From the NCBI GenBank assembly GCA_001767455.1, contig MELC01000036.1, positions 111,636 through 175,635 on the forward strand: a stretch of 64,000 bases of DNA, in the 5' to 3' direction. This document shows positions 35,009 through 38,967 of the stretch, piece by piece; positions within the stretch are counted from its first letter, which is position 1, and each line of letters begins with the position of its first letter. This stretch comes from Acidobacteria bacterium RIFCSPLOWO2_12_FULL_66_21. GTDB taxonomy: Bacteria; Acidobacteriota; Vicinamibacteria; Vicinamibacterales; 2-12-FULL-66-21. Both the position numbers and the translations under genes were made by a program. The notes below the pieces were generated by a model that was given only the letters and a program-made list of their open reading frames with translations, was not told the DNA's origin and did not search any database.

Positions 35009-36208
35009 GTGCGGATCGAGCGCATCGAGCTGAGACTGCTGCGGCTGCCGCTCGTCCGCTTCTTCGAGACGAGTTTCGGGCGGATCCACGAGCGGCCGTT
35101 CGTCCTCGTCACGGTGGAAGAGGCCGGCAGCGCCGGCGTCGGCGAGTGCGTCGCCGATGCCAATCCGTTCTACAGCGCCGAGACGACCGCGACGGCGTGG
35201 CACATCATCAGCGAATTCGTCGCGCCGATTGTCCTCGGACGCGAGTTCGCGCATCCGCGCGAGATCTTCGATGCCCTCGCCGTCATCCGCGGGCACAACA
35301 TGGCGAAGGCCGCGGTGGAGATGGCGGCCTGGGATATGTACGCGCGCCAGCAGGGACGCCCGCTGGCCGGCGTCCTGGGAGGCAGTCCGGCGATCATCGA
35401 GTCGGGGATTGCGTCAGGCGTGTCGATCGGCATCCAGGACTCGCTCGACGAGCTGGCCGAGCGGGTGGACGTCGAGCGCCGCACGGGTTATCGCCGCATC
35501 AAGATCAAAATCAAGCCGGGCTGGGACATCGACGCCGTGGCGATGATCCGGGAGCGCTTCGGCGATATTCCGCTGATGGTCGACGCCAACGCGGCCTATC
35601 ACCTGGCGGACGCGGCGCACCTGTCGCGCCTCGATCCGTTCGGCCTGATGATGATCGAGCAGCCGCTCGATTACGACGACATCCGCGACCACGCCGCGCT
35701 GCAGCGGCAGATCCGGACGCCGATCTGCCTCGACGAATCGCTCCACGCGGTCCGCGCGGCGGCCGAGGCCATCGAGATCGGCGCCTGCCGGATCATCAAC
35801 ATCAAGCCGGGCCGGGTCGGCGGGCACGGCCAGTCGATTCGGCTGCACGACCTCGCGGCGGCACACGGCATTCCCGTCTGGCACGGCGGCATGCTCGAAA
35901 GCGGCATCGGCCGCGCGCACAATATTCACTTGTCGACGCTCGCGAACTTCCGGCTGCCGGGCGACGTCGCCGCGAGCCGACGGTACTACGCGCCCGATTT
36001 GATCGATCCGGAGATCGACGTACGCCCCGACGGCACGATCGCCGTGCCGACCGGTCCGGGGATCGGGGTCACGATCGACTGGAATCGCGTGGCGGCCGCG
36101 ACCGAGGCGCGTCTCGAAACACGGATGAACACGGACCACGGAAGCACACCGACCACGGACGACCACGGAAGCACACGGAAGGCTGAACCGCCGAAGGCAC
36201 GCACGTAA
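35009..36208 (+). CDS. menC: o-Succinylbenzoate synthase (enolase superfamily), with repeat-encoded C-terminal tail
   Basis: AKAAVEMAAWDMYARQQGRPLAGVLGG, IKIKIKPGWD, LMVDANAAYHLAD, MMIEQPLDYDD, KPGRVGG. Confidence 0.9.
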   Translation: MRIERIELRLLRLPLVRFFETSFGRIHERPFVLVTVEEAGSAGVGECVADANPFYSAETTATAWHIISEFVAPIVLGREFAHPREIFDALAVIRGHNMAKAAVEMAAWDMYARQQGRPLAGVLGGSPAIIESGIASGVSIGIQDSLDELAERVDVERRTGYRRIKIKIKPGWDIDAVAMIRERFGDIPLMVDANAAYHLADAAHLSRLDPFGLMMIEQPLDYDDIRDHAALQRQIRTPICLDESLHAVRAAAEAIEIGACRIINIKPGRVGGHGQSIRLHDLAAAHGIPVWHGGMLESGIGRAHNIHLSTLANFRLPGDVAASRRYYAPDLIDPEIDVRPDGTIAVPTGPGIGVTIDWNRVAAATEARLETRMNTDHGSTPTTDDHGSTRKAEPPKART

Positions 36209-38382
36209 TGCAGATGAAGCACTCGATCTCGATCCGTCGATACGCACTCGCGCTGGTCTCCACGATGTCGCTCTCGGCCTGCGGCAGCGCGCCTGTCGCT
36301 CCGGCCGCGCCCGCCATCCGGTTCGAGCAGAAGCTCGCATGGATCCTCCGGCTCGAAGACCAGCGCCTGCTTCGTATCGAGCCCGCCGCGCCGGCGGTCC
36401 CGGCGGTCGTCCCCGGCCGGAAGCGGGCGGCGCTGCCCGTCGCGCCTCCACCCGCGCCTCCGGATCTGCTGACACTCGTCGCCGATCCGGAAGCGCGCGT
36501 CCGGCGGCGCGCCGCGCTCGCGATCGGCCGCATCGGCCTCCGGGAAGGGGTTCCCCCCCTCGTCACGGCGCTCGCGGATGTCGATCCCGAGGTTCGCGAG
36601 ATGGGCGCCTTCGCGCTGGGCTTGATCGCGGACGTCTCGGCTGTCGCGCCGTTGTCGACGGCGCTGACCGACGCGTCGCCGCTGGTGCGCGGGCGCGCCG
36701 CGGAAGCGCTCGGACTCATCGCGGCCAAAGATGCCGCGGGACTGGCGGCCGCGAAGGTCTCCGCGGCCGCCGTGGGCCGGATGACGGCCGAGTATGCCAG
36801 CCACCCCGCCGTTGCCGGCATGAAGCCGGACGACGAGACGAACGGACCGCCGGAGGCGCAGGCGTTTCGGCTCGGCCTGTTCGCGCTCGTGCGGCTGAAA
36901 GCGTACGAGCCGCTGGCCGCGGCCGCGCTCGACGCATCAGGCCGGCCCGTGACTGCGTGGTGGACGGTTGCCTTTGCGCTGCAACGGATCAACGACCGGC
37001 GCGCGGCGCCGGCGCTCGTGCGACTGCTCGCCACGCCCGGCAAGTACACCGCATCGTTCGCGGCGCGCGGCCTGGGTGCGCTGAAGGAGCCGTCATTTGT
37101 CGGCCCGCTGCTGCCGTTGGCGGCAGCCCCGCAGACGCCGCTCGAGGTGAGGATTTCGGTGGTTCGCGCCCTGGCGCAGCTTGGCGACGCCCGGTCGGCG
37201 GAGCCGCTCGCGCGCCTCGCGTCGGACGCGCAGACGGATCCGAACGTGAGGCTCGAGGCGGTATCGGCGCTCGGCGCACTGCGCGCCGCGTCAGGTCTGT
37301 CGGTCGTCCAGGACCTGATGAGCGATCCGTGGCCGTCCATGCGGATCGCCGCGCTCCGGGCCGCAGCCGCCATCGACCAGGAGAGCTTCCTGCTGGTGCT
37401 GTCGGGACTCGATCCGGATCCGCAGTGGAGCGTCCGCGCCGCGCTGGCCGACATCCTGGCGACGCTGCCCAGGGACGTGGCCGCCGCGCGCCTCGAGGCC
37501 ATGCTGCATGACGAGGACCAGCGGGTGCTGCCCCCGGTCCTGAACGCGCTGGTGCGGGTCGGCGCCCCGGACGCGGCTTCGGTCGTCATGGCTCACGTCA
37601 AAGTGACGGACTTCGTGGTTCGCGCGCACGTCGCGCGCCTGATCGCGCAGCTGAAACCGGCAGGCGGGCTCGACGCGCTGAAGGAGTTGTACCGCGTGTC
37701 CCGCGCCGACGCCGCCTATGACGCGCGCGCCGACACGCTGGCCGCGCTGGCGGAGTACGGGGGCGCCGCGGCCAGCGAGACGGTCAAGGAGGCGCTGGCC
37801 GACAAGGACTGGGCGGTGCGGCTGCGCGCGGTGACGCTGCTCGCGAAACTCGATCCGTCCGGCGATTACCGGCTGGCGATTCGCCCCGCTCCGCCGACCC
37901 CGCTCGGCACCTACGAGGATCCGGCCCTGGTGTCGCCGGCCTACTCCCCGCACGTCTTCATCGAGACGGCGAAGGGCACCATCGAGATCGAGCTGGCCGT
38001 CCTCGACGCGCCCGAGACGTCGCGCAATTTCATGGCGCTCGCGCGCAAGGGGTTCTTCAACGGCCTGCAGATCCACCGGGTCGTCCCCAACTTCGTCGTG
38101 CAGGACGGGGATTCGCGCGGAGACGGGGAAGGAGGGCCGGGCTATACCATCCGCGACGAGCTGAACGAGCGGCCGTTCGTGCGCGGGGCCGTCGGCATGG
38201 CGCTGGCGGGACCCGACACCGGGGGCAGCCAGTTCTTCATCGCGCACTCGCCGCAGCCGCATCTCGACGCGAAGTACACGGTGTTCGGCCAGGTGGTCGG
38301 CGGGATGGCGGTCGTCGATCGCATTCAGCAGGGGGACGTGATCCAGCGGGTGAGAGTCTGGGACGGAAAAACAATGCAGTGA
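36208..38382 (+). CDS. Lipoprotein with HEAT repeats fused to cyclophilin-type peptidyl-prolyl isomerase
   Basis: Lipobox LSAC; HEAT-like repeats; C-term IEIELAVLDAPETSRNFMALARKGFFNGLQIHRVVPNFVVQDGD...GGSQFFIAHSPQPHLDAKYTVFGQVVGGM. Confidence 0.9.
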   Translation: MQMKHSISIRRYALALVSTMSLSACGSAPVAPAAPAIRFEQKLAWILRLEDQRLLRIEPAAPAVPAVVPGRKRAALPVAPPPAPPDLLTLVADPEARVRRRAALAIGRIGLREGVPPLVTALADVDPEVREMGAFALGLIADVSAVAPLSTALTDASPLVRGRAAEALGLIAAKDAAGLAAAKVSAAAVGRMTAEYASHPAVAGMKPDDETNGPPEAQAFRLGLFALVRLKAYEPLAAAALDASGRPVTAWWTVAFALQRINDRRAAPALVRLLATPGKYTASFAARGLGALKEPSFVGPLLPLAAAPQTPLEVRISVVRALAQLGDARSAEPLARLASDAQTDPNVRLEAVSALGALRAASGLSVVQDLMSDPWPSMRIAALRAAAAIDQESFLLVLSGLDPDPQWSVRAALADILATLPRDVAAARLEAMLHDEDQRVLPPVLNALVRVGAPDAASVVMAHVKVTDFVVRAHVARLIAQLKPAGGLDALKELYRVSRADAAYDARADTLAALAEYGGAAASETVKEALADKDWAVRLRAVTLLAKLDPSGDYRLAIRPAPPTPLGTYEDPALVSPAYSPHVFIETAKGTIEIELAVLDAPETSRNFMALARKGFFNGLQIHRVVPNFVVQDGDSRGDGEGGPGYTIRDELNERPFVRGAVGMALAGPDTGGSQFFIAHSPQPHLDAKYTVFGQVVGGMAVVDRIQQGDVIQRVRVWDGKTMQ

Positions 38383-38460
38383 GACAGCTTCCAGCTTCCT
38401 GCTTCCAGCTTCCTGCTGGAAACTGGGAGCTGGGAGCTGGGAACTGGAAACTTCTTTTGT
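38383..38460. repeat. CAGCTTCC / GGGAGCTG word-repeat palindrome
   Basis: 18/22 matching inverted arms 38389-38410 / 38428-38449. Confidence 0.85.
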
Positions 38461-38471
38461 ACAAGCGAAAA

Positions 38472-38490
38472 GGGGGCGACGGCCGCCCCC
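38472..38490. terminator. Bidirectional intrinsic terminator
   Basis: aaaaGGGGGCGacggcCGCCCCCttttt. Confidence 0.88.
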
Positions 38491-38510: not shown

Positions 38511-38564
38511 CTACCGCTTCTTGCCGCCCTTCTTCTTCCCGCCCTTGGCCGTCTTCTTTGCCAT
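38511..38564 (-). CDS. 17-aa lysine-rich micro-protein, copy 1 (MAKKTAKGGKKKGGKKR)
   Basis: Identical peptide to 38723-38776 with only synonymous codon differences; followed by intrinsic terminator. Confidence 0.78.
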   Translation of the reverse strand: MAKKTAKGGKKKGGKKR

Positions 38565-38680
38565 TGCGCTTTATCCCCCCCTTCACTCGTGGGATTCCGA
38601 CTGCGAGGAGCTCTCGCGGCGCCCGTCGCCTCTTTGCGTAACTCCCGCCTCATCGCGGGAGGTCGGCCGCCAAAAAAATT

Positions 38681-38705
38681 GGGGGTGTCATCATTCGACA
38701 CCCCC
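38681..38705 (-). terminator. Intrinsic terminator between the two micro-ORFs
   Basis: Minus: GGGGGTGTC gaatgat GACACCCCC AATTTTTTT. Confidence 0.93.
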
Positions 38706-38722
38706 GGTCCGGTGGACGGCGC

Positions 38723-38776
38723 TTAGCGCTTCTTTCCGCCCTTTTTCTTGCCGCCCTTAGCAGTCTTCTTCGCCAT
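38723..38776 (-). CDS. 17-aa lysine-rich micro-protein, copy 2 (MAKKTAKGGKKKGGKKR)
   Basis: AAGGAGG Shine-Dalgarno 5 nt upstream of ATG; identical peptide to copy 1; own promoter and terminator. Confidence 0.85.
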   Translation of the reverse strand: MAKKTAKGGKKKGGKKR

Positions 38777-38870
38777 TATTCCTCCTTGGAACGTGGCAGC
38801 TCAGCTGAGTTTCCGGTCGCCTATGGTTACAACAGGTGGGCTGAGCGATCCACCCTCATACAAGATGTAG

Positions 38871-38898
38871 ATTATGGATGAGAAAATGCGACTGTCAA
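38871..38898 (-). promoter_or_regulatory. Sigma70-type promoter for micro-ORF copy 2
   Basis: Minus: TTGACA (38898-38893) - 16 nt - CATAAT (38876-38871). Confidence 0.78.
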
Positions 38899-38967
38899 GC
38901 ACAAAGTGGCATCGAAAGTCAAAAACCGCACAAAAAGTTTGTCGGCGGGAGCGCGCGGAGACTGTAG

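Follow-up and report, generated by a model that had tools for sequence, protein, structure and literature searches.

Bacterial H1-like proteins (chlamydial Hc1 and Hc2, Pseudomonas AlgP and the Bordetella/Burkholderia proteins) share Lys/Ala(-Pro) repeats, strong basicity and a variable repeat number. The micro-proteins described here have the same Lys/Ala-dominated composition without acidic residues, but they differ in being mostly 14-22 aa long, in being encoded by tandem and often identical copies, in having structured leaders of their own and in scoring under every cut-off. Coxiella ScvA, a small basic DNA-binding protein of ~30 aa, is likened to them by description as a tiny, basic, proposed nucleic-acid binder; it belongs to a different phylum. 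The small ribosomal proteins bTHX and Sra are also tiny and basic, and have a fixed sequence bound in rRNA; the longer micro-proteins gave no match to such a family in Pfam or NCBIfam. Cis-regulatory leader RNAs of the riboswitch and ribosomal-protein types share with the micro-gene leaders a conserved 5' UTR and covarying helices adjoining the ribosome-binding site, whereas the micro-gene leaders match no Rfam 15 family. AlgP is tied to the even spacing of polyphosphate granules in one report (PMC9239181).

The window (the whole stretch of DNA analysed, 64 kb) carries two micro-genes on its minus strand. Micro-gene A (38723-38776, ATG at 38776, stop TAA), which is kept across the order, and micro-gene B (38511-38564, ATG at 38564, stop TAG) encode the same 17-aa peptide, MAKKTAKGGKKKGGKKR, about half of it Lys and the remainder mostly Ala and Gly, with acidic and bulky residues absent. 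On neither strand does the window hold another ATG-started ORF that is 10-35 aa long and at least 40% Lys; proteins of 14-17 residues fall below the size range of standard gene callers. Between the two 54-nt ORFs there are 8 differences, every one at a third position: 7 are silent codon changes and the other is TAA/TAG. With 21% of random single-base changes in this ORF being silent, 8 of 8 silent would arise by chance with a probability of ~3.8e-6. The initial annotation proved correct in its coordinates, its peptide and its list of differing codons. The flanks of A and B are mutually dissimilar, as it had stated, yet each is strongly conserved relative to the same copy in other genomes. The promoter, Shine-Dalgarno sites, terminators and base-paired leaders described below are not part of that annotation.

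Upstream of A, a sigma70-type promoter, TTGACA-N16-CATAAT (minus strand; -35 hexamer at 38898-38893, -10 hexamer at 38871-38876, spacing 16), has 11 of 12 consensus matches, and one such pattern was found against 0.1 expected in shuffles. The -35 hexamer is part of a conserved region, TTTTTGAC...TTTGTGCTTGACA (38893-38925, minus), that has the same layout in other loci. In the window and in other loci TTTTTGAC stands at a near-fixed distance 5' of the conserved -35, and is perhaps a second promoter element or an activator site. Shine-Dalgarno sequences precede both ORFs (AGGAGG at 38786-38781 before A; GAAGGGGGGG before B). A is followed by a terminator (38681-38705, minus) with the 10-pair stem GGGGGTGTC...GACACCCCC and then AATTTTTTT, and most A copies in relatives have a similar G+C-rich hairpin and T tract downstream. 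The terminator after B (38468-38490, minus; GGGGGCG-GCCGT-CGCCCCC then TTTT) was read by eye and lies outside the scan result because its T tail is shorter than the rule of the terminator scanner demands; B copies in the other printed loci are followed by the same kind of hairpin. With a promoter upstream, a Shine-Dalgarno sequence and a terminator at each ORF, and recurrence across the order, A and B are real genes. No second promoter between them was found in the promoter scan of the window, so B is probably expressed by readthrough of the A terminator or from an unrecognised promoter.

Convergent to the micro-genes, a plus-strand gene (36208-38382) encodes a HEAT-repeat and cyclophilin-type prolyl isomerase; a simple motif test placed the isomerase motif in convergent orientation at 66 of the 85 loci, and the gene is a conserved landmark, not a proposed working part. 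Just beyond terminator B, positions 38377-38464 form an imperfect inverted repeat of TTCCAG/CTGGAA units. Weak Rfam miRNA matches at these positions look like chance matches on the local inverted repeat and were rejected.

The A-leader, a conserved 5' UTR (38777-38870, minus), contains helices P1 (38854-38850 with 38839-38835) and P2 (38846-38840 with 38805-38799) as well as the Shine-Dalgarno AGGAGG. Together P1 and P2 would form an H-type pseudoknot abutting the A ribosome-binding site, or would be mutually exclusive helices; the minimum-energy fold of the A-leader in the window is a nested alternative and not the pseudoknot. The B-leader of the window genome is a shortened form (38565-38680, minus) with an extended Shine-Dalgarno, GAAGGGGGGGATAA, from 38584, and in many relatives it has a conserved hairpin, TGCC-AGGC-GGCA, and two covarying lower helices. 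Standard pairs made up 89% of P1 and P2, falling to 29-50% when the partner strand was slid, and pairs made up 86% of the three B-leader helices. Double-changed cells numbered 13 in the A-leader (3.0 in shuffles; 0/500 as high) and 54 in the B-leader (23 in shuffles; 0/500), and these counts exceed the number of independent pairing events, since the helices were chosen by eye on the same alignments as were tested and the shuffles leave relatedness in. The covariation score of the B-leader was 0.302 against 0.152 in shuffles. In genus g71 a near-invariant CTCA/TGAG pairing of the A-leader becomes CTAA/TTAG, a compensatory change (by eye). Several genomes, among them that of the window, lack the B-leader anchor hairpin or have a shorter form of it, and the outer B-leader helix P0 lacks firm support, 13 of 200 within-group swaps being equally good.

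RNAalifold on its own recovered no more than a portion of the helix in the A-leader and, in the B-leader, just the invariant hairpin, and helices chosen by eye were therefore counted instead. Single-sequence folding z-scores were weak (-1.2, -1.8, -0.6 and 0.05), so the argument for leader structure is one of covariation. No match to either leader at gathering score was found in Rfam 15, the weak matches listed being elsewhere or at chance level. Both leaders are conserved and, as judged from these pairings, base-paired, and each may represent a new RNA family.

In g71, a small-genome genus, the promoter and A-leader occur a second time, directly 5' of ftsZ and with no micro-gene (L166:170-900 in G122; also L165, L193 and L194; genomes G118, G120, G121 and G122). 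This second copy lies ~34 kb from the micro-genes where one contig carries both. A domain search, on G122 only, identified the GTPase domain of FtsZ in the ORF after the leader (PF00091, E 2.7e-46), and in the other g71 genomes the sequence after the leader is, by eye, the same. This copy supports the A-leader as a portable 5' regulatory region.

Family members were sought by DNA patterns, the 17-mer being too short for a protein search, in 162 genomes of one order of soil bacteria, probably Vicinamibacterales to judge by the 'gp6' titles (Acidobacteriota; its families include f1, f2, f12 and f14). With degenerate ORF patterns the gene was detected in 6 of the family's 12 genomes and in 16 of all 162 from the order (reversed control pattern, 0), and a pattern for the promoter and leader start matched 102 of 162, one per genome (control pattern, 0). 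The A-leader model R1 matched 127 of the 162 genomes and 84 of the 100 high-quality ones, usually once each. In a phylum-wide draw it matched 38 of 396 genomes, all 38 among this order's 42, and none of the ~354 outside the order, four same-class genomes included. When 84,980 species genomes were scanned for exact matches, 13 contigs came up; 12 bear an Acidobacteria title (several of these with 'gp6'), and the remaining one, VFZH01000009.1, is titled Acidimicrobiia (L130). The latter title is probably wrong, as the contig apparently belongs to a genome placed in the acidobacterial order (G112). Viral contigs gave 0 exact leader matches, and hence no sign of a mobile element. In about a dozen f14 genomes (g76-g78, g83 and g84; e.g. 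G132-G137 and G150-G154), several of them >94% complete, leader, promoter and micro-gene were not found; the micro-gene is thus not universally required, and is either dispensable there or too diverged for detection. No description of the micro-protein family was found in the literature.

Almost all leaders that were read stand before an ORF of the form MAKK...KKR/KKK encoding 14-65 aa (14-22 aa in most genomes); the exceptions are the ftsZ copies and one weak match in a masked stretch (L164). With the pattern ATGGCnAAR, 141 ORFs were collected, and 139 of them start MAKK, a count that is partly made by the search because the motif itself fixes M-A-K. The KKR end (127 ORFs; KKR or KKK in 137), the frame and the composition (K 48.6%, A 28.0%, G 7%, R 4.8%, V 2%) are not fixed by it, and D, E, L, I, F and W do not occur in the 141 ORFs. 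The locus is normally present once per genome, usually with two copies: f1 and most of f12 have both A and B, most of f2 has B only, and f14 has A only, as one longer gene of 35-65 aa with KAAKK/PAAKK repeats behind the A-leader. Single-copy families thus retain either A or B, and the copies appear interchangeable. On sequence grounds these ORFs constitute a previously unrecognised family of predicted tiny lysine-rich proteins, present in most members of the order.

Purifying selection on the peptide, which the initial annotation had read from the two window copies, is borne out by the relatives. Within genomes, A and B differ by 130 silent nucleotide changes and 35 non-silent codons, silent changes being ~20% of those possible; the MAKK...KKR frame is kept, with only in-frame length changes among the 141 ORFs. 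Constraint therefore stood at the peptide level, but not as an exact 17-aa sequence fixed across the order: the persistent traits of the predicted peptides are charge, the MAKK start and the KKR end, while exact sequence, length and K/A/G pattern drift. In 13 of 48 genomes the A peptide equals the B peptide, where 6.25 (sd 1.29) would be expected from swapping B within families (0/20,000 as high), a test that leaves in relatedness below the family level. Third-position identity is 0.60 between A and B of the same genome, 0.65 between A and B of different genomes and 0.85 between A copies across genomes. The peptides thus remain similar although their DNA has not been copied recently, and a recent duplication as the origin of the pair is excluded.

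We propose, with a probability of roughly one half, that the peptide is an abundant H1-like polycation which would bind DNA and/or structured RNA non-specifically through its charge, at a dose regulated by the leaders. It would behave as a detached, lysine-rich histone H1 tail and compact or coat these nucleic acids by charge-driven, sequence-independent binding, a property suggested by its composition. A and B would supply an identical product, the lone strong promoter would give high transcription, and the A-leader pseudoknot by the A ribosome-binding site, with the terminator between the genes, would set the output of A and B. The preservation of charge and composition, and not of sequence, fits the expectation for an H1-like tail. 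Pfam and NCBIfam scans covered the longer members, the 17-aa forms being below scannable length. The longest f14 members matched Hc2 in Pfam (PF07382) at 13.7 bits (cut-off 40, E 0.068) and NCBIfam models NF038052 and NF038053 at 19.4 (cut-off 135) and 17 (cut-off 80), with E values in f14 of 9e-4 for the Hc2 model and 0.0055 for the Burkholderia-type model; these matches are far below the curated cut-offs, and low-complexity sequence yields such matches easily.

The length of 17 residues, very short for DNA compaction, counts against an H1-like role. All 12 genomes searched for HU have it, so the micro-protein is not the sole nucleoid protein. No lysine-rich tail was found on seven HU-family proteins from five genomes, and by way of speculation the micro-protein could provide such a tail in trans. 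A free polycationic tail acting in trans, its dose controlled via two undescribed leader RNAs (the A-leader pseudoknot and the B-leader hairpin), with the A-leader recruited to ftsZ in one genus, is a rather doubtful extension; if true, it would be a novel type of peptide, RNA-controlled and conditioning chromatin or ribosomes.

Extreme basicity, tiny size, one strong promoter and a structured leader against the ribosome-binding site are also traits of ribosomal-protein genes, and the product could be a ribosome-associated or small ribosomal-type peptide (bTHX- or Sra-like) that binds rRNA, with the leaders as autoregulatory sites. We regard this as rather unlikely: in ribosomal proteins the contact sequence stays fixed, whereas these peptides range from 14 to 65 aa with drifting sequence, are confined to one order and partly lost within it, and in their longer members gave no ribosomal-protein family match. 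The poly-K/A composition likewise recalls AlgP-type H1-like proteins, and with the link of AlgP to polyphosphate granule spacing made in the report cited above (PMC9239181) it could point to a peptide that serves polyphosphate, or some other polyanion, as counter-ion or organiser. Such a role is unlikely, as no polyphosphate gene is among the immediate neighbours identified and the micro-proteins are without the long AlgP-type repeat domain.

The RNAs themselves might be the main product, as dual-function small RNAs of ~200 nt each with terminators and a secondary peptide; the base-paired, conserved leaders and the recurrence of promoter and A-leader at ftsZ would suit this. It is improbable given that constraint on the ORFs is clearly at the protein level, that the ftsZ copy is an ordinary 5' leader of a gene and so fits cis-regulation, and that the B hairpin is missing in several genomes, the window's among them. 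A Lys-rich ORF followed by a terminator also resembles a lysine-sensing leader peptide in a transcription attenuator, a reading largely refuted by the absence of a same-strand gene after B (the next gene is convergent in the window and in 66 of 85 loci), by strong ribosome sites on both ORFs and by peptides of up to 65 aa. Conservation in most of the order's families, together with silent-only divergence and low A/B third-position identity, refutes chance ORFs and a recent DNA duplication. A type I toxin-antitoxin peptide was rejected, since the 141 ORFs encode no hydrophobic membrane-spanning segment (V 2%; L, I, F and W absent).

Conserved in most families of an order, and usually encoded twice, peptides of 14-17 residues would rank among the smallest conserved bacterial proteins, and the family suggests that selection can act on charge and composition by themselves. 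Length (14 to 65 aa), copy number (one or two) and presence of the B hairpin all vary among its members, a natural series in which to ask at what minimum length an H1-like polycation still works. Genome G051 (L064) has three tandem micro-genes (ORF positions 116, 394 and 587, counted from the -35), the third encoding MAKKAAKKAAKKPAKKTAKKR. In genome G057 (L068) the B position is occupied by a K/A/P-rich protein of 52 aa that ends in GCKAC, an unusual cysteine-bearing form.
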